In this document: positions 15,160 through 32,707 of the stretch, piece by piece
How positions within the stretch are numbered: the stretch's first letter is position 1
Layout: each line of letters begins with the position of its first letter
Origin: Gemmataceae bacterium
Lineage (GTDB): Bacteria; Planctomycetota; Planctomycetia; Gemmatales; Gemmataceae
Direction of reading: 5' to 3'
DNA length: 35,587 nucleotides
Assembly (NCBI GenBank): GCA_025055215.1
Contig: JANWYO010000088.1
Coordinates: forward strand, 1-35,587
Program-made: the position numbers and the translations under genes
Notes under the pieces: model-generated
Told to the model about the DNA's origin: nothing
Database searches by the model: none
What the model saw: only the letters and a program-made list of their open reading frames with translations

Positions 15160-16680
15160 CTAACCCGTACGGAACCTTTCGACGAAGTCAAGTAACCTCT
15201 TGTTCTTTCCCTCATGTTTCCGTATGCGCTTTATCAATTGGCTTTTCCACATTGGAAAATTCATCTCTGACGAGATATTCGTCAAGAGAGTTAACACCGC
15301 ACTACTTGGCTCCGCGCCGAGTCTCTCCGCCAAGCTTCGCAGGCTTTGAATCATTTCCTCTTCATTCCGGAATATGCCATCTTCAGTCAACGGCGTTTCT
15401 GGCAAGCGTTTCACGAATTCTGCCTGCCAGGACTCTTCACGCAGATCGTTCGGTCCAAAATGGGCCTGCGATAATAGCTGGAAATAGCAGTGATAGATCA
15501 ACCACGGCCTTATCTTCACATCTTCCTCAGCTACTGCCTCCACCCTCCATTTCCGCAAATGGCGTAACATGGCCTCAGCTGTGGATCGCTGCCAAACGTC
15601 GTTAGCCCGGTCAACGTCCCTTATCTGCACAAACTTCCGTGCATACTCAGAAATCTTAGCATCCGGCCTGGTTGATAAAGCATAAATGCACCTCTTACCA
15701 TCCCTCTGCCACCATGACAAATAGTCCATCTCCTCCTCAATCTCACCCAGCAGCTTGGCGATCGACTCGCTCCCACTGTTCTTCCGCCCAAGCTTTGCGA
15801 CAAGATCTTTCAGGGCTCTCTGCACCTCATCCTTGTTTCTCGGAAATGCAGCCTTCTCGGGTAAGCGTGTCAGGAAGTGCACGTCAGGATGGTGTCCCTG
15901 GAGAGCGGCTCCGACCTGCTCCTGGCTCAGCGATTTCAAGAATCGATGAGCGGCTTTGATGTTGTCGTTACCGTCGTCCTCACAAAATGCAATGAACTTG
16001 TGCCAAAATCGCCATGATGGGGATGGAGTACTTTCATTATTCTCAACCGGCTTCTTCTGTGAAAGGTTGAGACTCCATTTCTCGGCCAGTTTAGCCATTT
16101 TTTGGGCTGCTTGGCGCAACTCTTCATCATTTTGAGATGGCCCACTGCCAATTGCCTGCCACGCAAGAGCAACACTCGCGATCACCACAATCATGCCCGC
16201 GACGACAAGGTACCATCGATGCCGATTCGTGACTCGATGCTCGACGCGTTCAGGGCGAGCGATGGGCTGACCAATCGCTACCCTCTGACGTATGGTAATC
16301 TTCAAAGCCTCATCGGGGCCGACCCTGTCGGTGGAAAGGCCCATCAAGTGGGGCACGATGGCTTGAATCTCGTCTTCATTGGGCTTGTTGGAAAGGAAGA
16401 CAACCCGCAGGATGGTGGGGGCGCGCCCTCGAGCTTTGGGATCGGAACAATTCCTATCATGCTCCATTTGTCCTAAGAGAAAGCCACCCATGGCTTCCTG
16501 AACAAACACCCTGTCTGCTCGGTCATCCATCCGCAGATCACTACGCCGATCCAACTCAGGTTTAACAGCAGCGAGCAGCGCATCGAGACGTTCTCGGAAC
16601 CAGGGATGATATGCCCACCCCTCACCATCGGCAAACCAACGATGAATGGCAACCACGCCAGCGTTGTCAACCTGCTTCAT
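15160..16680 (-). CDS. Single-span membrane protein with duplicated outer domain (island operon, gene 4)
   Basis: 506 residues. The ATG at 16680 lies 4 bases after the stop of the GTPase gene, so the two are surely co-transcribed; a longer frame would overlap that gene. Residues 1-150 are a cytosolic domain (YHPWFRERLDALLAAVKPEL, LRVVFLSNKPNEDEIQAIVP). A membrane segment lies at 156-178 (WYLVVAGMIVVIASVALAW), preceded by several Arg/His, giving N-in/C-out. The outer part holds two copies of an 85-residue unit at about 265-350 and 417-502: FLTRLPE, FPRNKDEVQRALKDLVAKLG, EIEEEMDYLSWW in the first match FVKRLPE, IFRNEEEMIQSLRSLAERLG, NISSEMNFPMWK in the second. No known domain is recognised. Its AT-rich codon use differs from the flanks. 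Confidence 0.8.
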   Translation of the reverse strand: MKQVDNAGVVAIHRWFADGEGWAYHPWFRERLDALLAAVKPELDRRSDLRMDDRADRVFVQEAMGGFLLGQMEHDRNCSDPKARGRAPTILRVVFLSNKPNEDEIQAIVPHLMGLSTDRVGPDEALKITIRQRVAIGQPIARPERVEHRVTNRHRWYLVVAGMIVVIASVALAWQAIGSGPSQNDEELRQAAQKMAKLAEKWSLNLSQKKPVENNESTPSPSWRFWHKFIAFCEDDGNDNIKAAHRFLKSLSQEQVGAALQGHHPDVHFLTRLPEKAAFPRNKDEVQRALKDLVAKLGRKNSGSESIAKLLGEIEEEMDYLSWWQRDGKRCIYALSTRPDAKISEYARKFVQIRDVDRANDVWQRSTAEAMLRHLRKWRVEAVAEEDVKIRPWLIYHCYFQLLSQAHFGPNDLREESWQAEFVKRLPETPLTEDGIFRNEEEMIQSLRSLAERLGAEPSSAVLTLLTNISSEMNFPMWKSQLIKRIRKHEGKNKRLLDFVERFRTG

Positions 16681-16684
16681 GGCT

Positions 16685-19015
16685 TCACTTGTCCGGATAG
16701 GGTTCAAGACTCGGGGGGACCACGGCGGGGCATTCAAGGTAGACAAGTACCTCCTTGTTATTCGAGCACACTGTTGTAAAGACTCCGTGGGCTTTCAATA
16801 ACACGAAGCATTGATCCGTTGCCTCGCCTCTGGCCCAGTCGTTAAAATCAGTGATGTCGTATTCCTCGACTTCCACCTTCAGTACGCCTCCTTGGCCCCA
16901 TTTTAGACGGAACGGGCCCAGCCTTTCCCCAATCTGCGGCGTCTGCCCCCGATACCAGGCGGTTGTGTGTCTTATCCCGTTGAGATCGATGTGCACACGG
17001 GGCTCCTCGGTCACGAAGACCTCGTCCAGATCACTTCCATCGGGAATACTAATTGTTTTTACCTCGATGTAGTAATCCCGTTCTTCCTTCAGGTCGTCAC
17101 ACCACTTTAGCCAACGTCTAACGTCCTCTTCGCAGCGCTTCAAGGGATGACTCCCGTTGAGGTATCGGCGGGCAATGTGTTCCGCGGCTTGGATGGAATC
17201 ACAATCTTTGGCCTCTCGCGTCGCCATGCACACTTTTTCGTATTCTGCCCTGTCCCAGCGAATCTGGGTGCGTTCAATCGTTTGCAGCGCCTCGTTCCGA
17301 TAAGCTGCCCCGGGCTTGTTCGCGTACTCCTGCGCCCGGCGAATTATTTCATCGAAATTTTTCGGATTTTGTCGTTCGTAACTGACAACAACCGCCCAAT
17401 CCTTTTCTCTCTTGGCATTTTCGTATGCTGCAAGGCATTGTTCGATCTCCTGCCGCTGAATTCGCCGGTTCGGAAACCGGACTTCCGGGAACTCAGCCAG
17501 GAACATGTTGCATTCTGCGATCGCCCGGTCGAAATCGTCCCCGATGCCTTGAAGTTTCGCGAGGAGTTGGCGATAACGTTCGTCGAACCGGAGGCAGTCC
17601 TGATACGCCTGAGCGCGGACCTGGTCATCGATCTGCCATCCTCTTACAATCGGCGCGTACCTCGAGCTGGGCCATCGTTGGAGAAAGTCTCGACAACGTT
17701 CGAAGCGTTTGTCCGCTGCCTCATCAGCCAGGTTAGTGCGGCGATATTCCTCTAGTGCCTCCAATTCTCGTTTCTCGCGCTGCTCGCGGTACTCTGTCTG
17801 TTGGCGGGCGATGTCGTCGCGCCAGCCAAACCACTGCGTCAGGGGATTCAGACTGGTCAAATACTGGTTGCAGGCTTGATGTACGTCGTCAGGATGCAGC
17901 GACGAGTCATCCAGGGCGGCGAGCGCGCGCTCCCGCGAGTTGCGCTCCTCCCAGAGAAGAGAACCGGCAATAGCGATCCAGGCAACGGTAGCAACCAAGC
18001 CGATCTGCCAGGCACGACGCCTGTAAAGTTTGTTCCGCCAATGCGACATCTCACTCCGGGCTTTTTCGTAGGTCGGTCCCTTATTGATGCCTTGCTCCCT
18101 CTCGAGATTTCGGAAGCAAGAAACGGCCCGACCATAGTGACGTTGCCACCACCACAACTGAGGGCCCGCATGCTGGAGCGCCTCGCGTCGGGCACGCTCG
18201 AGAAGCATTTCGTCGCTCTTATGGGCAATCCACACGAGCGGCTCGAGAAGCCCGAAAGGACGCGGACCCGTTGCAGGCGGTTGCGTGTTGTTGCGGTTGG
18301 CACCGAAGGCGGAAACAGGAAAGATTGCCACACGATCACCGCAGAGGCGCAAGCTGTCACCTATCTGCTTCAAGGCGGGTCGTGAATGGAGATACTCCAA
18401 GGCGCGCTGACGTTCACCATCGAAGTCGCCCGAAATACCGCCTTGAATATCCCATTTTGTCAACAAAAAGGCCAAGGGACGGCTAATCGTGTTGCCATCG
18501 GGGCTGAGCCTTTTCAATTCCGTGATCAGGAGATCGAGTTCATTGTGCCGTTCCCTCAGGGCCGCATCGTCTGCATCGCAATTCACGAAGAGAAGAATGG
18601 CGTGGCAGGCCCCCAGCCATTCCTTCACTTCCCTCTTGAGTTCGGGAACGCCGGTCTCCGACCGCTGGACCAAGGCACCGGCATAATCCCTCGTTGGAAT
18701 GTGCCAAGTCAAACCGTCTGCCTGAAGGCTAAGAGACAGTTCGGTGGGCAAGGTCAGAGCCGTAGCGTCCGGTACGTCTCCCCGCTCGAGAACCGTCCAA
18801 GCACGCTGCAAGTGATCGATCGAATGATCATCGTTGAACGTAACCGCCGCCTTTTGGGTGGCGCGATGGCCATACAAGCAAGCCAAGAAACAGGTCTTTC
18901 CCGTACCTCTCGCTCCATGGATGCCGAGTCGCCTCACCTTTCCAAGCGTTGTTGACAAAGGGATTCGGTTCTGCAAACCTGATGTTTTTAGCACACTTCC
19001 GGACGGAGTCTTCAT
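16685..19015 (-). CDS. Membrane-spanning GTPase with helical repeats and C2-like tail (island operon, gene 3)
   Basis: 776 residues; GGGAGAC supports the ATG at 19015. The N-terminal 260 residues form a P-loop GTPase: Walker A GARGTGKT (34-41), G3 as DYAG (110-113), G4 as TKWD (186-189) and G5 as VSAFG (234-238). A membrane span lies at about 336-354, with WRNKLYRRRAW before it, placing the GTPase inside and the rest outside. Residues 370-630 are helical, with repeats of the form CRDFLQRWPSSRYAPIVRGW, CNMFLAEFPEVRF and AEHIARRYLNGSHP. Residues 645-730 are beta-rich and end in LKVEVEEYDITDFNDW, reminiscent of a C2 domain. It may relate to the double-GTPase/GAP conflict-system families, but I cannot confirm that. 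It is not TssM, which is larger and has different topology. Confidence 0.85.
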   Translation of the reverse strand: MKTPSGSVLKTSGLQNRIPLSTTLGKVRRLGIHGARGTGKTCFLACLYGHRATQKAAVTFNDDHSIDHLQRAWTVLERGDVPDATALTLPTELSLSLQADGLTWHIPTRDYAGALVQRSETGVPELKREVKEWLGACHAILLFVNCDADDAALRERHNELDLLITELKRLSPDGNTISRPLAFLLTKWDIQGGISGDFDGERQRALEYLHSRPALKQIGDSLRLCGDRVAIFPVSAFGANRNNTQPPATGPRPFGLLEPLVWIAHKSDEMLLERARREALQHAGPQLWWWQRHYGRAVSCFRNLEREQGINKGPTYEKARSEMSHWRNKLYRRRAWQIGLVATVAWIAIAGSLLWEERNSRERALAALDDSSLHPDDVHQACNQYLTSLNPLTQWFGWRDDIARQQTEYREQREKRELEALEEYRRTNLADEAADKRFERCRDFLQRWPSSRYAPIVRGWQIDDQVRAQAYQDCLRFDERYRQLLAKLQGIGDDFDRAIAECNMFLAEFPEVRFPNRRIQRQEIEQCLAAYENAKREKDWAVVVSYERQNPKNFDEIIRRAQEYANKPGAAYRNEALQTIERTQIRWDRAEYEKVCMATREAKDCDSIQAAEHIARRYLNGSHPLKRCEEDVRRWLKWCDDLKEERDYYIEVKTISIPDGSDLDEVFVTEEPRVHIDLNGIRHTTAWYRGQTPQIGERLGPFRLKWGQGGVLKVEVEEYDITDFNDWARGEATDQCFVLLKAHGVFTTVCSNNKEVLVYLECPAVVPPSLEPYPDK

Positions 19016-19074: not shown

Positions 19075-20091
19075 CTATTCACGAAATGGGTGCTGGCGAC
19101 GGAATTCTGATTCCTGTTTGGTCGACACATCAGAACCCCTCCGGATCGCCCCGAGAAGGCCAAGACAGATCCATCGGCGTACCCACGGTACGGCGAGGAG
19201 CAACATCAAGATGACAAAAACCGTTACCAGAGTCGTCGTGGCCGGGTCGTCGGCATAACGGGCCTTGATGGCGTCGACGAGACCGCCCACGGTGCCTTGC
19301 ACTGCCCCCGAAGATGCGGCAATTCCCAGTTCTGCGAGTTGTCGTAGCGCATACTCGGTTAGGTTCCCAATGGCATCATGAAACTTTTCCGGCATGATAA
19401 GGTACGTGGCTAACAATCCGGCAACCAACCACTTGGCCTTATGGGGCGCGATATAGGTCTTCCAGAAGACACCCGCCCCTTTCCCCATTTTCCGAATTAC
19501 CGATTTCCATAGCGGGATAAGGTGCTCAGGCTGCAAGGTGTTGGGAAGCGACTTAAGCGCCAGTGTCCTCGAAAGAGCGGTCGCCTCCTCCGGCCCGAGC
19601 TTCACGGCCCCCAGAGCTTTCGCAACGTCATCGGTCTGCAACCAGTGGGCGCCATCGACTACAAAATCACCATAAGTCCTGGCCTGGGCCAGTCCGCCGG
19701 CGTCAAGCTTTTGAATCAGTGCGAGGCCATCGTCGGGGTAACGCCGAAGCGCCAGCTGGACTCCCTCACCGAGTTCGACAACCAGCCGCTTTTCTGCAGG
19801 CTTCAAGGCACGAAACTCAGCCCGCAAGGTGTCATCCACGCCTGACAAGCGACTGAACCGAGTCATGAAAACATCATCGCTAGGGAAGGAAGCGGTTCGC
19901 CGCGCGAGAATCTTCAGCGCTTCATCCGATTCAGTAAAGACAATGCTGGCAGTGCCTTTGCCAAGTTGTCTCCCAACAGAGCGAGCAGCATTGCTCGCAA
20001 GCTTCTCTACGATTTTCAATGCCTGCGCGGGCGCTCCGCTCGGACAGGCGATGATTACCAGCGAGACGAAGAATAGTCGGGCGAGTGACAT
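19075..20091 (-). CDS. Signal-peptide protein with two membrane spans (island operon, gene 2)
   Basis: 338 residues. The start is 2 bases after the stop of gene 1, showing tight co-expression. Residues 1-24 are a signal peptide ending in PAQA. Residues 25-215 are helical and outside the cytoplasm, with motifs resembling those of gene 1 (LRRYPDDGLALIQKLDAGG, YGDFVVDGAHWLQ). Membrane segments lie at about 221-233 (short, WLVAGLLATYLIM) and 286-304 (TLVTVFVILMLLLAVPWV). A positively charged tail (RRWICLGLLGAIRR) should lie in the cytoplasm. I do not recognise the family. From its position it could anchor the nuclease protein, transmit a signal to the GTPase or act as an immunity factor; these are guesses. 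Confidence 0.75.
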   Translation of the reverse strand: MSLARLFFVSLVIIACPSGAPAQALKIVEKLASNAARSVGRQLGKGTASIVFTESDEALKILARRTASFPSDDVFMTRFSRLSGVDDTLRAEFRALKPAEKRLVVELGEGVQLALRRYPDDGLALIQKLDAGGLAQARTYGDFVVDGAHWLQTDDVAKALGAVKLGPEEATALSRTLALKSLPNTLQPEHLIPLWKSVIRKMGKGAGVFWKTYIAPHKAKWLVAGLLATYLIMPEKFHDAIGNLTEYALRQLAELGIAASSGAVQGTVGGLVDAIKARYADDPATTTLVTVFVILMLLLAVPWVRRWICLGLLGAIRRGSDVSTKQESEFRRQHPFRE

Positions 20092-20093
20092 GG

Positions 20094-22544
20094 TTACATT
20101 TCCCTTTCCATAAGGGCGATGGCAAAGTTATCAACCTGACCCGAGGATGGAGCTGCACTTGGCTGAACAAGAGTGCGCTGTCCCTTGCGCACGACTTCAC
20201 GTGGAGCAAGCGGCCCCGTGTTCATTCGCCAGAGGCCAATCCCGAGACGTTGGGCCATACCTACTGCTTGTTTGATCCGCGTCGATATGTCAAATTCGCC
20301 ACCAATTTTTCTGGCAAATTCAATCCAGGTACGCGACATTCCGGGCGTTCGTAACAATCCTGTCCGAGGATCGTCCACGGGCATAGGAAAAATTCTGCCC
20401 CGAGGTCCGGTGACTCGTTCCACCCGAGTTAATCCCGGTGTTCCTCGTACGTGTTCTGTTCGCACTACTTCCACATAAAGTCGACCATCTCGTGCCGCCT
20501 TCAAGACTTCATCCGCAACCTTTTTCTCTTCGGGAGAGGTAACAGGGCTGCGCGAGACCCATTCAGCAACTTTCTCAATGTATTCGACCGTCCCTTGTTC
20601 ATGGCCTCGATAGGTTTTCATCGGGCCACTGCCACCCTTGGCCTCGATGACGATGATCCGCTCGCCGTCTCGGTAGGGCGGTAGGTCGAATCCCATGCTT
20701 TGGCGCGGGGGCCAGCGGTTAAGCGGCTCATATCCGACAGTAGATGCATATTCGCGAGCGCCTTCAATACCAATTTCCTCGACCAATTGTGCTTTGCCAT
20801 TGACGTCTCCCTTTCTGACCAGCTCAAGATACTCTTGTCGCCGGTCGGCCAACTTCATCATTAGCCCTCCGGTCCTCGCTTCGAGCCGCCGAGTCGCGAT
20901 CTCCGTGGCCTTCGTGCCGAATCGCGTCAGGTCCGCTCCCTCTCGCTTCGCAGATTCAAGCGCCAGCTTTTGCGCCGACTCAGCAATTTGCTTCTGGGCA
21001 CTCTCTAGGGCCTTTTCGACGATTTCTTTTCTTGCTTGTGACAGACCTCGTTTGACTGCTAATTTAGCGCCTTCCTGGCTGAGTCTATGCCCGGTCCTTT
21101 GGATGCTCGTTGCGACCGCCCCGTGAACCATCGTTGCCGTCGATGCCGCGTCGACCGTTGCCCAGAACAAGTCACCGCCCGTAACGTGCTGGCCATCAGC
21201 CCACTTAGCTGCGGTGCGGTATGCTATGTAACCGGGTATCCACTCCCAAATGGTGTCCTCGGGGGCGGGACCGCGAACCTCTGCGAGCACCTGACCTTTC
21301 AGATTGGCGACATTTACATAGATGTCGAGTTTATCTTGCCCTTCGCGATAGATGTTGTGGATGGCATGAACCACGGCAGGCGGATTGTCGCGTGGATTCA
21401 TCAGGTCAGGTTCGCACCGTCGCAGAAAAGCGTGAAACTTTCCGTAGTCGCGGTAGCGATAGAACACTTGGTAAGCAGGCTCCCCGAGACGAGCCATCGC
21501 CACCAACGCCGGCCTTTTCAGAGAATTGTCGCTCGCATAACGACTGTAAATCAGGTCCGCCGCAGCCGGCCCGCAACGACGCAGCACTTCCGCTCCAAGC
21601 TTCTCTCCGTGCCAACTCTCGGTGAGGAGTCGCAAGGTGTTCGCATGATCAAGGGCAAGGTCCTTGAGAACCGGCGGAAGAGCGGCAAACGTGTCGATTG
21701 CCTCTTCGATCTCTTGGAGCGGTTTCCCCGAATCAAGCATCTCTTGAATCGCATCATAGTTGACGATAATTAATGCCAAAGCTGTTAATTCGTCGTCCAA
21801 GGTACGAAGAGCATGCTTGGTGATCTCCGGGAACTGTCGTGAACCCGTTTCCGTGCTCGGTTCCACGAGCAACAGCGCATAGGGCAAGCCGTAGTCTTCG
21901 TGAAGACGAAGAATCAAGTCGCCTTCCCTGGCAACGGTAGCGGCCACACGGTTCAGGTCCTGTGGGTGGTCGGCAAAGTTGATGGCCATGAACAGGCGCC
22001 AGGCCCGATCTCCGTACTTTTCAATCATAGCCACGGCCGTCTGCGACTTGTCGGTGCATAAGAGGGGCATGCTAGCGGGGCAGCTTTCCGCAATAGCCAG
22101 GCGGTCGGGAGCCAGCGCGGCCAAGCGCGCAAGGAACCGGCCCAGTTTTCCCGTCTGGGCCCAGTCCAAGACAGCCCGATTCCAAGGGCCAGTTGCCAGC
22201 CGAAACCGGACGGGATCCAACCGGACAACCCGCACGAGGGCAGCGAATGCGTCCGGCTTGCATTCCAGGCAGTAAGCAGCCTCGTCTTCAAATGCTTCCA
22301 AGACATGCAGGCCATCCTCGCCATGTCGCTCGGCCGCAGAGAGGGCGGTAAAACCCCAGTTTTGGGCCATCCTTTGCACAAGCAGCGGATCGGCCTCTGG
22401 CAGAACAGCTTGAAGTCGATCTTCGAGGCTTCTGGGTGCTTTTGATGGAGCGGCCGGGTACAGAAAGTAAGCAGCGGCGAGTGCCGCTATCAGAAGGAAG
22501 CAAATGCTCACGGCACACTTACGCATCGAAGGTGAGAGAGCCAT
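20094..22544 (-). CDS. Membrane-anchored helical-repeat protein with C-terminal PD-(D/E)XK-like nuclease (island operon, gene 1)
   Basis: 816 residues from the ATG at 22544, which follows AAGGGAAGAA; an in-frame ATG at 22604 coincides with the predicted transcript start and is rejected. A signal anchor lies at 8-29 (RKCAVSICFLLIAALAAAYF) with positive charge before it, so the bulk is outside. Residues 40-440 are helical repeats (YGDRAWRLFMAI, YGLPYALLLVE, LARLAALAPDRLAIAES). Residues 490-590 are Ala/Glu/Lys-rich and probably coiled coil. Near residue 615 comes GFDLPPYRDGERIIVIEAK with D620, E634 and K636 in the PD-(D/E)XK arrangement, then HEQGTVEYIEKVAEW and RLYVEVVRTEHV, as in restriction-endonuclease-fold toxin domains of polymorphic toxins. 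Nuclease activity is inferred, not shown. No immunity gene of a known type is adjacent. Confidence 0.82.
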   Translation of the reverse strand: MALSPSMRKCAVSICFLLIAALAAAYFLYPAAPSKAPRSLEDRLQAVLPEADPLLVQRMAQNWGFTALSAAERHGEDGLHVLEAFEDEAAYCLECKPDAFAALVRVVRLDPVRFRLATGPWNRAVLDWAQTGKLGRFLARLAALAPDRLAIAESCPASMPLLCTDKSQTAVAMIEKYGDRAWRLFMAINFADHPQDLNRVAATVAREGDLILRLHEDYGLPYALLLVEPSTETGSRQFPEITKHALRTLDDELTALALIIVNYDAIQEMLDSGKPLQEIEEAIDTFAALPPVLKDLALDHANTLRLLTESWHGEKLGAEVLRRCGPAAADLIYSRYASDNSLKRPALVAMARLGEPAYQVFYRYRDYGKFHAFLRRCEPDLMNPRDNPPAVVHAIHNIYREGQDKLDIYVNVANLKGQVLAEVRGPAPEDTIWEWIPGYIAYRTAAKWADGQHVTGGDLFWATVDAASTATMVHGAVATSIQRTGHRLSQEGAKLAVKRGLSQARKEIVEKALESAQKQIAESAQKLALESAKREGADLTRFGTKATEIATRRLEARTGGLMMKLADRRQEYLELVRKGDVNGKAQLVEEIGIEGAREYASTVGYEPLNRWPPRQSMGFDLPPYRDGERIIVIEAKGGSGPMKTYRGHEQGTVEYIEKVAEWVSRSPVTSPEEKKVADEVLKAARDGRLYVEVVRTEHVRGTPGLTRVERVTGPRGRIFPMPVDDPRTGLLRTPGMSRTWIEFARKIGGEFDISTRIKQAVGMAQRLGIGLWRMNTGPLAPREVVRKGQRTLVQPSAAPSSGQVDNFAIALMEREM

Positions 22545-22588
22545 ACTAGGATTCTTCCCTTGGCAACACCGTTCCAGCGCCTCTGTCG

Positions 22589-22602
22589 GGCCAGGATTGG
22601 CC
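22589..22602. promoter_or_regulatory. Palindrome at the operon's predicted transcription start
   Basis: GGCCA and TGGCC arms around GGAT, with TTGGCCAA overlapping the right arm. It sits about 9 bases downstream of the minus-strand -10 box, where a bound repressor would block initiation. It is short, so chance is possible. Confidence 0.35.
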
Positions 22603-22610
22603 AACTAAAA

Positions 22611-22813: not shown

Positions 22814-23707
22814 ATGAAAGTACGTCAGGCTCGTCAGTTCGGTCTACGGACAATCGCCGTGATAAGCTTGCTCGGCCTCGTGCTGCCGACGCCGTTGGCC
22901 TGGGCCCTAGACGATGGCGGCACTTCGAAGGAAGCCGTTCCCTCTGGCGTCTTCTGCTGTGTCAATCCCGACGCCTGTTGCGCCGCTAATCGCAATTGTG
23001 GCTTTTATGCGGGGATTCTTGTTGGCGGAGCGGTTTCTGCTAATGACCCAATCGTGCAAAGCGGCACAGCTTTTATCACACCTCCGTTGGCTGTCCGGGC
23101 ATCCGGCGATGCGAAGAGCCGCGCTGGGGTGATGGCGGGACTTCATCTCGGTTACCAGTGGGGCGAGCCCACAGTTGCTGGCGATTCCGACTGGAGGATT
23201 CTACCGGCCGTCGAGTTTGAAGCTTATTACTTGGGCACCCGGCAAGCCGGGTTGCTCAACAATCCCACCGATCGCCTGCCAGAGCATCTGTTCGATTACC
23301 GTGCTCCGCTGGATATAGCGGTACTCATGCCCAATCTGCTGCTGACGCTCCACACCCCCTACAGGATCCATCCTTACGTCGGCGTCGGCGTGGGGGCGGC
23401 GTTAGTTTCCAATCACGGAGTGACGTCTCTTCAGCTCTCGCCGCCTGAACCGGGGATCAATCACTTCAACTCTGATCCCAACGCTTCCGACTGGGCCATC
23501 GCGGCCACTTGCCGGGCTGGCCTGCGATTTGACCTCGGCGATTCCTGGTATCTCTTTACGGAGTACAAGTTCCTGGCGATTGGTGCAACCGATTACACGT
23601 TCGGGTCCACGGTCTATCCTATCCATCCGCCGACCTCGGCCTGGTCTGTGCATTACGGCACCATGTTTGAGCACATGGGTGTCCTGGGATTGGGCTGCCG
23701 ATTTTGA
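22814..23707 (+). CDS. Outer-membrane beta-barrel protein with N-terminal cysteine cluster
   Basis: 297 residues, with a strong ribosome site (AAGGAGGAGA). A signal peptide runs to about residue 31 (LLGLVLPTPLAWA). Just after it five cysteines fall within 16 residues (CCVNPDACCAANRNC), unusual for a barrel. From residue 63 on there are alternating amphipathic strands typical of OmpA/OmpW-like 8-strand barrels (GFYAGILVGGA, AGVMAGLHLGYQWG, HPYVGVGVGAALVSN, WYLFTEYKFLAIG), and the chain ends in Phe (GLGCRF), as barrel proteins folded by BamA do. It is divergent from the island operon and probably has its own control. It may be a passenger of the island or supply an outer-membrane partner for the operon's envelope proteins. 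Confidence 0.82.
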   Translation: MKVRQARQFGLRTIAVISLLGLVLPTPLAWALDDGGTSKEAVPSGVFCCVNPDACCAANRNCGFYAGILVGGAVSANDPIVQSGTAFITPPLAVRASGDAKSRAGVMAGLHLGYQWGEPTVAGDSDWRILPAVEFEAYYLGTRQAGLLNNPTDRLPEHLFDYRAPLDIAVLMPNLLLTLHTPYRIHPYVGVGVGAALVSNHGVTSLQLSPPEPGINHFNSDPNASDWAIAATCRAGLRFDLGDSWYLFTEYKFLAIGATDYTFGSTVYPIHPPTSAWSVHYGTMFEHMGVLGLGCRF

Positions 23708-24631: not shown

Positions 24632-25720
24632 ATGACCACCGATGAATTACGGGCCTGCACCAAGAAGGTGTTGGCCGAAATGGCCCGAGATCAGAACATC
24701 CCCGGATGGCATGGGATGCGCAAGGAGGAGTTGATTGCTGCTTTATCCGGCAAGCCGGGAAAGAAAAAAGGGCCTCGGCCGAAGCCGCAGACAGGGGCGG
24801 CCCGCAACACCGGCAATGGGACCTCGGTCGAGGAACAGGTCGAACGCAGCAAGTTTGATGTCGGGGTTCCTACGAAAGACCTCTCGGCCAAACTTCCCAA
24901 GCATTTGCCGGCCGGTTACGGCAAGGACCGTATTGTTGTGATGGTCCGCGATCCGTACTGGCTGCACGCATATTGGGAGGTGACGCGTCAGGCGATCCAG
25001 CGGGCGGAAGCTGCTCTTGGTCAGGAGTGGCATGGTGCCAAGCCGATCCTCCGGTTGCTCGACGTCAGCAGCCAAGACACCACGAACACCGCGGAAGCTA
25101 TCGTACGCGACATCGAAATCCACGGCGGGTGCAACAATTGGTACATCGAGGTGCAGAACCCGCCGCGATCGTATCGGGTGGATATCGGCTATCTCTCGCG
25201 CTCGGGGAAGTTTTATGTGGTGGCCCGTTCCAATGTGGTGACCACGCCCCGGGCGGGCGTCAGCGACGTCATCGACGAAAACTGGGCCGACATTGACGCC
25301 CGCACTGCCGACCGGATTTACGCCATGTCGGCCGGCTTTGATCCCACGGCCAGCAGTCTCGAACTCAAGCAGCTGTTCGAAGAGCGGCTTCGGCGGCCGA
25401 TGGGCTCGCCGGCCGTCACCAGCTTCGGTTCCGGGGCCTGGGGGCACATGAAGCCGCGGAAATTCTGGTTCCAGCTTGATGCCGAATTGATCGTTTACGG
25501 GGCTACCGAGCCCGATGCCCGGGTGACGCTCCAAGGCGAGCCGGTCAAGCTGCGACCCGACGGCACGTTCACCATGCGATTCAGCCTTCCCGACAGCCGA
25601 CAAATCATCCCCGCGACGGCTGCGTCGGCAGACGGAGTCGAAGAGCGCACCATCGTGCTGGCGGTCGAGCGGAACACCAAACACTTGGAACCGCTGTTGC
25701 ATGACATGGTCAACGAATAA
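24632..25720 (+). CDS. DUF4912-domain protein with Rho-N/SAP-like N-terminus
   Basis: 362 residues. Residues 1-40 (MTTDELRACTKKVLAEMARD, GWHGMRKEELIAALSG) form a Rho N-terminal or SAP-like helical module of the kind that binds nucleic acid. A basic linker (KPGKKKGPRPKPQ) follows. Residues 90-230 are the DUF4912 domain: GKDRIVVMVRDPYWLHAYWEVT, IEIHGGCNNWYIEV and SYRVDIGYLSRSGKFYVVARSN. The C-terminal part (FWFQLDAELIVYGATEPDAR, LRPDGTFTMRFSLPD) is an immunoglobulin-like strand set usually found with it. Function is unknown; by architecture a cytoplasmic nucleic-acid-associated protein is likely. A single gene between a strong promoter and a textbook terminator suggests a well-expressed monocistronic unit. 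Confidence 0.85.
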   Translation: MTTDELRACTKKVLAEMARDQNIPGWHGMRKEELIAALSGKPGKKKGPRPKPQTGAARNTGNGTSVEEQVERSKFDVGVPTKDLSAKLPKHLPAGYGKDRIVVMVRDPYWLHAYWEVTRQAIQRAEAALGQEWHGAKPILRLLDVSSQDTTNTAEAIVRDIEIHGGCNNWYIEVQNPPRSYRVDIGYLSRSGKFYVVARSNVVTTPRAGVSDVIDENWADIDARTADRIYAMSAGFDPTASSLELKQLFEERLRRPMGSPAVTSFGSGAWGHMKPRKFWFQLDAELIVYGATEPDARVTLQGEPVKLRPDGTFTMRFSLPDSRQIIPATAASADGVEERTIVLAVERNTKHLEPLLHDMVNE

Positions 25721-25748
25721 GTGCCCCCCGCGCGCGACCTGAATGTCC

Positions 25749-25782
25749 CAGCCCACGGCAACGGTGCCGTGGGCTGTTTTTT
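25749..25782 (+). terminator. Intrinsic terminator of the DUF4912 gene
   Basis: Perfect 12-bp stem (CAGCCCACGGCA and TGCCGTGGGCTG), loop ACGG, followed by six T. It is the only classical Rho-independent terminator I found in the window. It lies inside the longest open frame of the next gene and so argues for that gene's later start. Confidence 0.92.
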
Positions 25783-25805
25783 CAGTTTTGAGCGGTCCGG
25801 ATCTC

Positions 25806-26864
25806 ATGCACCGTCGTCGTTGGCTGTCGCTTGAGCAGATGGTTGAGACTGCCGGGCAGCTGGCCGCCGCCGTCGATCCGGCGCCGGTGTCACCGGAGAC
25901 GCTACCGCCCCGCGAGGTCGCCTTGCACCGCTTTGGCCGACGGGCGATGGCCACTTGGTTCGAGGTCTTCCTTCCCTTCGGTTGGCCGGGAGCACTATCG
26001 CTGGCCGAGAAAGCCTTCGGGGAGTTGGAGCGCCTTGAAGACCAGCTGACGGTTTATCACGAAGCCAGCGAGATTAGCCGGATCAATCGACTGGCGGCGT
26101 CGAGACCGGTGGTGGTCGAAGAGCGGCTATTTGGCTTGTTGGAGCGCTGCGCGGCCTTGACGAGGGCCACGGCGGGTGCCTTTGACATCACGGCCCATGC
26201 GCTGGTCGTGGCCTGGGGCTTTCATCGCCGTCAAGGCCGGGTGCCGACCGATGCCGAGCGGCGTGAGGCGTTGGCGCGGGTGGGCATGGGTCATGTGGTG
26301 CTCGAGCCGGAGCGGCGGACGATTGCCATCCGCCGTCCCGGAGTGGCGATCAATCTGGGAAGCATCGGCAAGGGCTACGCGCTTGATCGCATGGCGGAGG
26401 TGTTGCGTCGCGAAGGGAATTTATCGCTGGCCCTGTTGCATGGCGGGCAAAGCAGCGTGTACGCTATGGGGAGCTCACCGGCGAGCAGTCGCGGTTGGGC
26501 CGTCGGCGTGCAACATCCGTGGGAGGCTGGCCGTCGATTGGCCGTGGTTTGGCTCCGAGACCAAGGTCTGGGCACCTCGGCAGCCACCTTCCAGCACCTG
26601 GAACACCAGGGAATGAAGCTCGGCCACGTCCTCGACCCGCGGACCGGCTGGCCGGCCGGGGGGCTGGCCAGCGCCAGCGTCGTGGCGCCGACGGCCGCCG
26701 AAGCGGATGCCTTGGCCACGGCGTTTTTCATCCTCGGCGTCGAAGGGGCACGGGCTTATTGTGCCGAGCATCCGGGCATTGGGGCGATCCTTCTTCCCGA
26801 GGGGGAAGGTGCTCGGCCCGTGGCCGTAGGCTTGAGACCCGACCAGTACGATTGGTGCCCCTGA
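25806..26864 (+). CDS. apbE: ApbE-like FAD:protein FMN transferase
   Basis: 352 residues. The ATG at 25806 is chosen because upstream in-frame starts would lie in or before the terminator. ApbE enzymes attach FMN from FAD to Thr of target proteins such as Nqr and Rnf subunits. Visible are the N-terminal RRAMATWFEVFLPF, LEDQLTVYHEASEISRIN, the FAD/Mg region INLGSIGKGYALDRM and the metal-site signature GHVLDPRTGWPAG. Two deviations occur: the usual D-x-GGN loop reads LLHGGQSS and the TSG loop reads GTSAATF. There is no lipoprotein signal or lipobox, so it is cytoplasmic or a non-classical member. No Nqr or Rnf genes are close. The DoxX gene follows after 44 bases. Confidence 0.85.
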   Translation: MHRRRWLSLEQMVETAGQLAAAVDPAPVSPETLPPREVALHRFGRRAMATWFEVFLPFGWPGALSLAEKAFGELERLEDQLTVYHEASEISRINRLAASRPVVVEERLFGLLERCAALTRATAGAFDITAHALVVAWGFHRRQGRVPTDAERREALARVGMGHVVLEPERRTIAIRRPGVAINLGSIGKGYALDRMAEVLRREGNLSLALLHGGQSSVYAMGSSPASSRGWAVGVQHPWEAGRRLAVVWLRDQGLGTSAATFQHLEHQGMKLGHVLDPRTGWPAGGLASASVVAPTAAEADALATAFFILGVEGARAYCAEHPGIGAILLPEGEGARPVAVGLRPDQYDWCP

Positions 26865-30910: not shown

Positions 30911-32707
30911 ATGGCTGAGGTCATCGTCGGGATCGACCTGGGCACGACCAACAGCGAGGTCGCTGTCGTCCAACATGGACAAACGCGTGTCTTGTCGGAC
31001 GAGACGGGAGACCCCATTTTGCCGTCTTTCGTGGGTTTGTCGAGCGACGGCAAACTGCTGGTCGGCCGGGCGGCTCGCAACCAATGGGTCCTGGCCCCCG
31101 AGCGCACCATCAAATCGATTAAGCGAAAGATGGGCCAGGACGTGAAAGTGCCACTCGCCGACCAGCAGTATCAGCCGCAGGAAATCTCGGTCATGATCCT
31201 CAAGACGCTACGGGATCGGGCCAGCAAGGCGTTAGGGCGACCGATCAAGAAAGCGGTCATCACAGTGCCGGCCTACTTCAACGATGCCCAGCGGCAGGCG
31301 ACCCGCGATGCTGGTGAACTTGCCGGTCTGGAGGTCGTGCGCATCCTCAACGAGCCGACCGCCGCTGCCCTTACCTACGACCCCCGTCAACAAGACCTGC
31401 AACGGATCCCGGTCTATGACCTGGGCGGTGGCACTTGTGATGTCTCCATCGTTCAGGCCCAACAGGGAGTGGTCGAGGTCTTGGCCAGCCACGGCAACAC
31501 GCAGTTGGGGGGTGATGATTTCGACGAACTTCTTCTGAACCGGGTCTGCGATTCCTTCCAGCGCGAGCACGGCATCGACCTGCGTGCCGACCCCGTGGCG
31601 AAATCCCGGCTCTTGCAGGCCGTAGAGGCAGCTAAGTGTCACTTATCGTACCATTCGTACGCTCGCATCGACGAGGAGTTCATCGCCGAAAAAAACGGCC
31701 GGGCCCTCCACCTGTCGATGGAAGCCAACCGCGAGGAGTTTGAGGACATGATCCGTCCCCTGCTGCAACGCACTCTGGAGTGCGTGCAGCGGGCCTTGCG
31801 CGACGCCAAGTTGACACCTGCCGCCCTCGAGAGGGTCTTGCTGGTGGGCGGGAGTACGCGGATACCCTTGGTCAGCCAACTGCTGGAGGACCGCCTTCGT
31901 CAACGGCCCCACGCCGAGGTCAATCCCCACCTATGCGTGGCCTTAGGGGCGGCGGTGCAGGCGGCCATTATTGCCGGCGTGGAGGTCGGCGCCGTCCTCG
32001 TGGACATCACCCCCCACTCGCTGGGCATCAAATGTCTCGACCCGGATGGCGGCTCCAGCGGCTTCCCTTTCCGGCTCGCGCCGATCCTGCACCGCAACAC
32101 TCCTCTGCCGGCGTCGCGCAGCGAGTTGTTCAGCACGGTCCACGACAATCAGGAAGCCGTCGACATCGAGGTCTACCAGGGGGAAAATCCTGACATCCGC
32201 CGCAACCACCGCATTGGCAAGTTCCGGGTCCAGGGATTGGCGAAAGCACCAGCCGGCAATCAGATCGTGGTGCACCTTGACCTTAACCTCGATGGCGTGC
32301 TCAAGGTGTCGGCCCGGGAGCGAGTTACGGGGCTGCAAAAGCAGATCGTCATTGAGAATGCCTTGGCTCGCTACGTGCTGGAGGAACGCGATGCCGCTCG
32401 TGCCCGGCTGCGACAGTTGTGGGGCGAGTCAGGGACGGCGGCGGAGGAAGACGACGCTGACGACGCTACGGATGCGATGCCGACGCTCGTGCCCGGGCCG
32501 CGCGAGGGGCAGCGTGAGACGGTGCAAGCCCGGGCCCTGCTTGAAAAGGCGGAACGCTTGCTGGCCGGCGTTCGGCCGGAAGATAAAGCCGAGTTGGAAG
32601 GGTTGATGGAGCGTCTGCGGATGGCGCTGACCGACCGCCGATGGGAGGAGGTCACGGCGGCGAGCGACCAACTGGCGGATGTGTTGTTCTACCTGGAAGA
32701 GGCATGA
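30911..32707 (+). CDS. DnaK-like Hsp70 chaperone (short-tailed)
   Basis: 598 residues, shorter than DnaK proper (about 640). ATPase-driven folding chaperone in the cytoplasm. The nucleotide domain has IDLGTTNS (phosphate 1), VPAYFNDAQRQATRDAGELAG, ILNEPTAAALTYD, YDLGGGTCDVSI (phosphate 2) and LLVGGSTRIPLV (adenosine site). The linker and substrate domain follow from LVDITPHSLGIK, with NTPLPASRSELFST and DLNLDGVLKVSARE. The C-terminal lid is reduced and acidic (EEDDADDATDAMP), with no terminal EEVD-like tail, so client or co-chaperone contacts may differ from DnaK. No grpE or dnaJ is next to it, which suggests a paralogue and not the main dnaK. The next gene overlaps its stop as ATGA. Confidence 0.92.
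   Translation: MAEVIVGIDLGTTNSEVAVVQHGQTRVLSDETGDPILPSFVGLSSDGKLLVGRAARNQWVLAPERTIKSIKRKMGQDVKVPLADQQYQPQEISVMILKTLRDRASKALGRPIKKAVITVPAYFNDAQRQATRDAGELAGLEVVRILNEPTAAALTYDPRQQDLQRIPVYDLGGGTCDVSIVQAQQGVVEVLASHGNTQLGGDDFDELLLNRVCDSFQREHGIDLRADPVAKSRLLQAVEAAKCHLSYHSYARIDEEFIAEKNGRALHLSMEANREEFEDMIRPLLQRTLECVQRALRDAKLTPAALERVLLVGGSTRIPLVSQLLEDRLRQRPHAEVNPHLCVALGAAVQAAIIAGVEVGAVLVDITPHSLGIKCLDPDGGSSGFPFRLAPILHRNTPLPASRSELFSTVHDNQEAVDIEVYQGENPDIRRNHRIGKFRVQGLAKAPAGNQIVVHLDLNLDGVLKVSARERVTGLQKQIVIENALARYVLEERDAARARLRQLWGESGTAAEEDDADDATDAMPTLVPGPREGQRETVQARALLEKAERLLAGVRPEDKAELEGLMERLRMALTDRRWEEVTAASDQLADVLFYLEEA

Follow-up and report, generated by a model that had tools for sequence, protein, structure and literature searches.

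A predicted membrane-anchored DO-GTPase with a C2-like outer domain in a Gemmataceae genome

Can a bacterial GTPase carry a sensing domain on the far side of the membrane, and in what kind of system would such a protein work? The question is raised by a stretch of 35,587 nucleotides from a Gemmataceae bacterium (NCBI GenBank assembly GCA_025055215.1, contig JANWYO010000088.1, positions 1 to 35,587; hereafter the window), which belongs to a draft genome of 4.58 Mb in 347 contigs. A preliminary description, made from the letters alone, had read the open reading frame (ORF) at 16685-19015 as a GTPase joined through one membrane crossing to some 420 outer residues that end in a C2-like domain. The ORF stands as described, a minus-strand frame of 776 aa whose ATG is at 19015 and whose stop is at 16685, with a Shine-Dalgarno-like AAGGGAG ahead of the ATG; it is not a product of chance, since other genomes hold homologues built in the same order. 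Its G domain apparently belongs to an already known bacterial GTPase family, the DO-GTPases, of which the span, outer helical stack and C2 domain form a variant architecture.

The kinship of the G domain is carried by Pfam. Against PF19975 (DO-GTPase1) the window protein scores 28.6 bits and against PF19993 (DO-GTPase2) 27.7 bits, both cut-offs being 27, and a search of the genome gave 30.6 bits for PF19993. In alignment A1, PF19993 is matched at E ≤ 1 by all nine rows, window included (best 6.9e-12), and DO-GTPase1 by six. Within the window genome PF19993 gives two matches at E ≤ 0.01, both above cut-off: the window gene and a second, core-type GTPase, G000:C308 (G, C, L, f and g numbers are our handles for genomes, contigs, loci, families and genera). 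The preliminary description had suspected a distant member of the DO-GTPase families, and these scores bear it out. A housekeeping identity was rejected: DO-GTPase1 and DO-GTPase2 are the sole above-cut-off Pfam matches, and no housekeeping GTPase was matched in Pfam or in NCBIfam, where the window protein gave weak ABC-type matches to the P-loop, far under cut-off. A PDB sequence search with a whole-GTPase profile returned weak matches only (best E 0.015). The AlphaFold model of the whole GTPase has a mean predicted local distance difference test score (pLDDT) of 70.8 and a predicted template modelling score (pTM) of 0.39; structure alignment matched its N-terminal portion to Arf, Arl and Ras GTPases (best Z 16.1; 3.8 Å over 186 residues), and a Foldseek search with the whole model gave two matches at E ≤ 0.001, both titled G-alpha chains. 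The four motifs claimed from the letters, GARGTGKT, DYAG, TKWD and SAFG (G1, G3, G4 and G5), are all present. In alignment A5 (24 rows, window included; L137, L139 and L140 were left out as fragments or a distant hit), K40 is found in 23 of the 23 rows that have a residue there, D110, G113, D189 and S235 in 24/24, and K187 in 21, with Arg in the remaining three. Pfam gave no N-terminal zinc ribbon in the window protein at E ≤ 0.1, and there is no N-terminal hydrophobic segment; these are optional features whose absence does not exclude membership, zinc ribbons being reported in 60% of DO-GTPase members and N-terminal spans in 13% in the family's description (Kaur et al. 2020, PMC7159879).

On Kyte-Doolittle hydropathy (19-residue window, threshold 1.6), the sole above-threshold hydrophobic segment of the window protein lies at residues 336-354, with a value of 1.73, and 422 residues follow it, in agreement with the early estimate; their placement outside is a prediction. 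The hydropathy maximum falls at the same place in 23 of the 24 A5 rows (L126 is the exception), and lysine and arginine are richer on the N side of the segment in all 24, i.e. N in and C out. From this shared position and the positive-inside flanks a single span, as proposed at the outset, is likely, the topology signal being consistent but modest. Beyond the span the chain is modelled as helical over about residues 355-645, with a block pLDDT of 78-95 for residues 471-640 (model pTM 0.39). BamD chains are among the lower Foldseek matches (E 0.039, 0.18 and 0.19) and Pfam YfiO is matched at E ≤ 1 in five of the nine A1 rows (best 1.7e-6), so the outer helical stretch is likely a stack of the tetratricopeptide repeat (TPR) type. 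Such a topology would allow signal transfer across the membrane by the GTPase chain itself; to our knowledge, it is unusual in bacteria for an outer domain to signal to a GTPase within one chain.

The C-terminal domain was traced through its relatives. An hhalign comparison of the window clade (five rows) with the C-terminal domain of 21 relatives gave a probability of 93.8, E 1.7e-7 and a score of 48.3, the maximum among 30 column-shuffled control comparisons being 19.0. Across 22 domain rows, PF00168 is matched at E ≤ 1 in 15 (best 4.7e-4; the only row for which bits are given is under cut-off). In a PDB profile search with the domain the top match is 9bkw, titled a Trichomonas C2 domain (E 0.0012), and C2 domains of extended synaptotagmin and dysferlin stand lower in the list among unrelated matches. 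The VIA list for the whole-GTPase model holds no C2 rows, the G domain filling the list and the window's C2 region being of low confidence, and the domain of a relative was therefore folded alone. Modelled in this way, the domain from Singulisphaera acidiphila (L119) reaches a pLDDT of 90.0, and its best PDB match is a C2 domain (Foldseek 3.5e-6; VIA Z 13.1, 2.6 Å over 114 residues); the other entries listed for it are likewise C2 domains or C2-containing proteins. Structure comparison thus recovers a C2 beta-sandwich for the L119 domain and not for the window's whole model, and the window is linked to the L119-type domain by hhalign, which, together with the Pfam, PDB profile and structure matches of the relatives, supports the C2-like end first proposed. 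The loop aspartates, at positions that we take to be the C2 calcium loops, are kept in most of the 21 relatives (D31 in 18, D79 in 20, D81 in 17 and D84 in 11). From alignment A10, L126, close to L125, and L131, where the domain is absent, were left out. C2 domains are known above all for lipid binding, chiefly from eukaryotic membrane traffic, and many bind no Ca2+.

With which partners might such a protein act? The GTPase gene is third of four closely packed minus-strand genes, p836, p338, the GTPase gene and p528, with intergenic gaps of 2 (p836/p338), 59 (p338/GTPase) and 4 bases (GTPase/p528); the likely start of p528 is an ATG at 16680, 4 bases past the GTPase stop (Table 1). Pfam matched no FNIII domain in p338, p836 or p528. 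Searched together with its relatives, p836 gave no Pfam match at E ≤ 0.1 in 8/8 rows, and the two matches from PADLOC, both to p836, are weak (E 0.031 and 0.05). By eye, the C-termini of 12 p836 sequences are of three kinds, one in six Isosphaeraceae proteins, one in L026, L029, L030, L112 and L113, and one in the window; the ends track lineage rather than varying among close relatives. The window's p836 ends in a nuclease-like module (residues 588-739) that recurs in separate proteins in six of the 149 genomes searched, the window genome included. Glycine, D, E-A-K and Q are invariant in 6/6 aligned module rows, a D...E-A-K...Q pattern that we take to be the PD-(D/E)XK nuclease signature; from sequence, then, the module is PD-(D/E)XK-like and its nuclease activity putative. 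One scan found no viral relative of it. Separately, five of the proteins with the module (L170, L171, L172, L174 and L175, the last in the window genome) show by eye a signal-like N-terminal stretch, the D...IEAKGG...Q module and a glycine-rich, Gly-zipper-like tail.

Table 1. Features of the DO-GTPase gene and its three neighbours in the window
Feature	Coordinates	Strand	Remarks
DO-GTPase, 776 aa	16685..19015	minus	G domain ~26-270, membrane segment 336-354, helical repeats ~355-645, C2-like ~646-774
G domain, residues 26-270	18206..18940	minus	G1 34-41, G3 110-113, G4 186-189, G5 235-238
Predicted single membrane-spanning segment, residues 336-354	17954..18010	minus	N-in/C-out by the positive-inside rule
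Predicted outer helical-repeat stretch, residues ~355-645	17081..17953	minus	AlphaFold model, Foldseek
C2-like domain, residues ~646-774	16694..17080	minus	hhalign for the window; relatives by Pfam, PDB profile and structure
p338	19075..20091	minus	hydrophobic signal-like N-terminus; C-terminal membrane segment 286-304
p836	20094..22604	minus	listed with a TTG start, an in-frame ATG being at 22544; membrane anchor near the N-terminus (30-48), long body, lineage-dependent C-terminus
Nuclease-like module of p836, residues 588-739	20388..20843	minus	D...IEAKGG...Q pattern
p528	15160..16680	minus	domain at the N-terminus, a single membrane segment, then an outer C-terminal part

The fourth gene, p528, occupies the position of a GAP1-N2-like gene found beside several core GTPases. 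Downstream of core-type GTPases, GAP1-N2 is matched at E ≤ 0.1 in five of ten encoded proteins (best 2.4e-8), and the neighbour of the paralogue in the window genome matches it just under cut-off (23.1 bits; cut-off 24); on the window contig there is no GAP1-N2 match at E ≤ 0.1. A GAP1 gene downstream or fused was thus recognised for some relatives (5/10) and not in the window. That p528 might itself be a hidden GAP1-N2 was suggested by a resemblance seen by eye and was rejected (hhalign probability 0.1), as was a suspected kinship with the single-span proteins of the MlaE operons L109 and L110, for which phmmer gave no match at E ≤ 10. It has homologues encoded close to GTPase or GTPase-like genes in G094, G079 and G020. 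Judged from its own sequence, the L023 row in alignment A6 looks SGNH-type rather than GAP1.

A few features outside the four genes may be recorded here. The divergent gene at 22814-23707 that adjoins p836 has a weak outer-membrane beta-barrel match (PF13505, 20.3 bits; cut-off 28.7). On the plus strand at 24632-26864 a DUF4912 protein with a weak Rho_N match is followed, after 22 bases, by an ApbE-family protein. An HSP70-family protein is encoded at 30911-32707 (PF00012, 1.6e-151), about 8 kb from the operon and outside it; HSP70 occurs in some GAP1-N2 systems, according to Kaur et al. 2020 (PMC7159879).

Is the window gene the usual copy of its family? A first search of the genome contigs with the window protein alone found no relative. 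A profile partly built from Isosphaeraceae sequences matched a core GTPase in all 45 Isosphaeraceae genomes (f3), with one match per genome except for one gene split over two contigs (G202); G119 additionally has a divergent second GTPase (L026). In 36 of the 45 genomes the p338 gene is no more than 2.3 kb away from the core GTPase and shares its strand; among the remaining nine it is on another contig or distant in seven, and two have no p338 row. Two genomes of genus g60 keep both genes but not side by side, about 55 kb from each other on the same contig in G116 and on different contigs in G134; they are also on different contigs in G193 and G223 of this genus, where short contigs may hide a closer spacing. 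The order p836-p338-GTPase occurs in L025, L026, L027, L033, L101, L103, L104, L112 and L113, the last two from f8 genomes that carry the run though their GTPase falls in a different clade, and L029 and L030 have p836 and the GTPase without a p338 match. Three entries titled Candidatus Kuenenia stuttgartiensis (L125, L126 and L131) carry an Isosphaeraceae-type GTPase; these titles are possibly mistaken.

A tree of 50 of the 78 rows (the 28 left out were presumed duplicates, fragments and short rows) pairs the window with G094 (99/86). An open fork (93/99) joins this pair with GTPases of the distant planctomycete family f48, with G079 and with one f48 row, L070 (G421), whose branch next to the window pair is very long (83/72); several long branches leave the deeper placement unsure. 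Because the core clade, which includes the window genome's own paralogue G000:C308, separates from the window pair (100/99), the window gene is a divergent accessory paralogue and not the family's usual copy. Three of the four f48 genomes searched match the GTPase profile at E ≤ 1e-30. In two of them, G445 with two tandem GTPases and G481 with one, each gene run includes an ABC-MlaE fusion (MlaE matches of 1.3e-14 and 9.7e-14). C2 is matched below cut-off in one of the G445 GTPases (E 0.0015, 19.2 bits; cut-off 22), and the DO-GTPase2 scores of the three G445/G481 GTPases are under cut-off (20.8, 21.6 and 22.9 bits; cut-off 27). The fused ABC ATPase-MlaE permeases adjoining these GTPases near the window clade lie at L109:4957-6564 and L110:9557-11173. 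Family f48 also holds very long open frames (1443-1736 aa) that match the GTPase part of the profile (G445:C187, C90 and C446; G481:C11; G421:C62).

The explanation that we favour, and to which we give an even chance of being right, is that the window encodes a membrane-anchored DO-GTPase of an envelope-facing complex with p836, p338 and p528, as an accessory copy with a nuclease-tailed partner. A cytosolic Ras-like switch would be joined via one helix to the outer helical repeats and the C2 domain. It would act together with p836 and p338, which on their hydrophobic segments would lie mostly outside the membrane, and with p528, which would span it once. The C2 domain and the repeats may contact outer lipid or the p836/p338 proteins, and such contact could alter the nucleotide state or be altered by it, with p528 perhaps holding GAP1's place as regulator. 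The window copy would be an accessory, divergent paralogue beside a core-type GTPase in the same genome, and given the nuclease-like module at the end of its p836, the role of this switch is probably to gate or sense an exported p836 effector. The changed G3 motif, the different downstream partner and the nuclease-like tail together point to such specialisation. The core GTPase of all 45 Isosphaeraceae genomes suggests, for the parent system, a lineage-core envelope role besides conflict. The architecture is supported, and function is what we infer from it.

Several observations weigh against this explanation or qualify what it rests on. The Pfam margins of the G domain are small, and PF19993 was also matched in 5 of 14 control genomes, above cut-off in one. 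The hydropathy maxima in A5 span 1.02-2.08, with 14 of the 24 rows under 1.6. The window's own C2 region has a block pLDDT of 28-66 over residues 641-770 and the window protein has no Pfam C2 match at E ≤ 1 (one alone of the nine A1 rows has a match), so that its fold assignment rests on its relatives; at the positions of D31, D79, D81 and D84 it has R, E, D and D, and thus lacks two of the four loop aspartates. No Pfam GAP1 match was found for p528, whose hhalign probability against GAP1-N2-like proteins is the 0.1 given above. For the nuclease-like module, Pfam returned nothing for the window row and the PDB nothing meaningful (best E 0.65). Next to the GTPase of the closest relative, G094, neither p836 nor p338 is matched, and the four-gene set is therefore not fixed in the window clade. 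Finally, the residue following DxxG is Ala114 in the window (DYAGA) and Glu in the other 23 A5 rows. A conserved Walker-B glutamate is named as a DO-GTPase family feature by Kaur et al. 2020 (PMC7159879), and taking it to be the residue directly after DxxG is our interpretation of that wording; on this interpretation the window protein exceeds the Pfam cut-offs of the family and lacks its glutamate. The same alanine is shared by the four nearest rows of the tree (G094, G481 and both G445 copies), whereas L070 (G421, f48) and G079 keep the glutamate, and Tyr, Gly or Thr occurs in certain rows farther away (rows that the regular expression could not read count as unread, not as negative). With the glutamate replaced in the window and its four nearest relatives, activity cannot be assumed, and the early statement that the GTPase should be active is not established.

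Could the window clade, then, have lost its switch, the missing glutamate leaving a GTP-binding or GDP-locked scaffold in place of a cycling GTPase? The shared alanine and the family status of the glutamate speak for it, and yet we hold it highly improbable: the other motifs of the window protein are all intact and the alanine is common to GTPases of three families (f1, f2 and f48), which suggests that nucleotide function is retained, and the Tyr, Gly or Thr of other rows indicates a residue that is not strictly fixed. In other TRAFAC GTPases, too, the residue after DxxG varies. Another rival is a conflict system as defined by Kaur et al. 2020, which the preliminary description had raised and in which the DO-GTPase would set the threshold for releasing an effector, in this case the nuclease-like tail of p836, on invasion or against neighbouring cells. 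It draws on the Pfam kinship, on the GAP1-N2 genes downstream of half of the ten core-type GTPases and the sub-cut-off match beside the own-genome paralogue, on the effector-like variety of p836 ends, on the sporadic nuclease-like module in other genomes, and on the planctomycete GAP1-N2 systems and the domains beyond a membrane span reported in that paper (PMC7159879). But no GAP1 was recognised in the window operon, and a core form present in every Isosphaeraceae genome, with p338 as recurrent neighbour, is not what a patchy arms-race system would show. The ends of p836 go with lineage, PADLOC has its two weak p836 matches and nothing else, and an exported p836 would be ill placed to act inside the cell as a nuclease against phage; nor was an immunity gene identified, though no search was aimed at one. 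Membership of a conflict system is accordingly not established, and we regard it as possible but doubtful.

An envelope-lipid or envelope-stress switch, with an outer C2 domain that senses membrane lipid, a GTPase that adjusts lipid transport or envelope assembly and a nuclease-like tail that is incidental, would suit a domain class familiar as lipid-binding modules and a core form kept throughout the Isosphaeraceae. It would also suit the G445 and G481 GTPases near the window clade, which run with an ABC-MlaE fusion and one of which has the sub-cut-off C2 match, and a study of the PSP envelope-stress response, where a DO-GTPase is predicted in membrane-related stress (PMC11237479). Set against it, MlaE has so far been seen as a neighbour in just two genomes, from a family represented by four, and the DO-GTPase2 matches of the GTPases concerned are themselves under cut-off; none of the ten window ORFs searched against Pfam matches MlaE, and of the loop aspartates that mark Ca-dependent C2 domains the window retains only a part. 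On balance such a switch seems unlikely to us. Quite unlikely is a wider reading, a transmembrane receptor-GTPase whose outer C2 domain would read envelope lipid (or Ca2+) while the inner Ras/Arf-like domain responds, and which would be a core envelope-maintenance switch in Isosphaeraceae, coupled to lipid transport of the MlaE type in a distant planctomycete family and re-armed with an exported nuclease in the window lineage. The presence of a core DO-GTPase in all the Isosphaeraceae genomes searched suggests more broadly that the family has an envelope role besides conflict, which is testable in cultured species, Singulisphaera acidiphila among them.

How does the window protein compare with known systems? 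A literature search, with most subscription journals and supplements outside its reach, returned no recognised description of such a GTPase-span-C2 architecture; queries on bacterial C2 phrases and on Isosphaeraceae with GTPase found nothing, GAP1-N2 led to Kaur et al. only, and besides that paper the term DO-GTPase was found only in the PSP study. The DO-GTPase/GAP1-N2 systems (PF19993, PF19975 and PF20013; Kaur et al. 2020, eLife, PMC7159879) are among the closest counterparts: the window G domain is above both Pfam cut-offs, and a GAP1-N2-like gene lies directly downstream of several core-type relatives (5/10) and, weakly matched, beside the own-genome paralogue. The paper also reports GTPases that carry domains, a beta-sandwich included, past a C-terminal membrane span. 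The domains named in its sections 27 and 29 do not include C2, and the membrane forms that it describes have four N-terminal spans and one C-terminal span, with zinc ribbons common, whereas the window protein has one span and no zinc-ribbon match. Unlike those systems, the window has its G3 glutamate replaced, p528 in GAP1's place, p836 and p338 as partners and no FNIII match in the operon.

The outer domain resembles the C2 domains of PF00168 in the fold of a relative's domain (Z up to 13.1), in its profile matches and in the loop aspartates of most relatives; it differs from known C2 domains in that it is predicted outside a bacterial inner membrane and joined to a GTPase, and in that the window copy lacks two of the four loop aspartates and a Pfam C2 match of its own. 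The module of p836 is like PD-(D/E)XK (REase-fold) modules in its invariant D...E-A-K...Q (6/6 rows), here in proteins with signal-like N-termini, and unlike them in giving no meaningful Pfam or PDB match. Another close counterpart is the core Isosphaeraceae DO-GTPase, as in Singulisphaera acidiphila (NC_019892.1, L119), which has the same order of parts, a p338 neighbour and a terminal C2 domain; it is 26% identical to the window protein and keeps DYQGEH, and the Isosphaeraceae p836 proteins beside such core-type loci end differently, without the nuclease-like tail.

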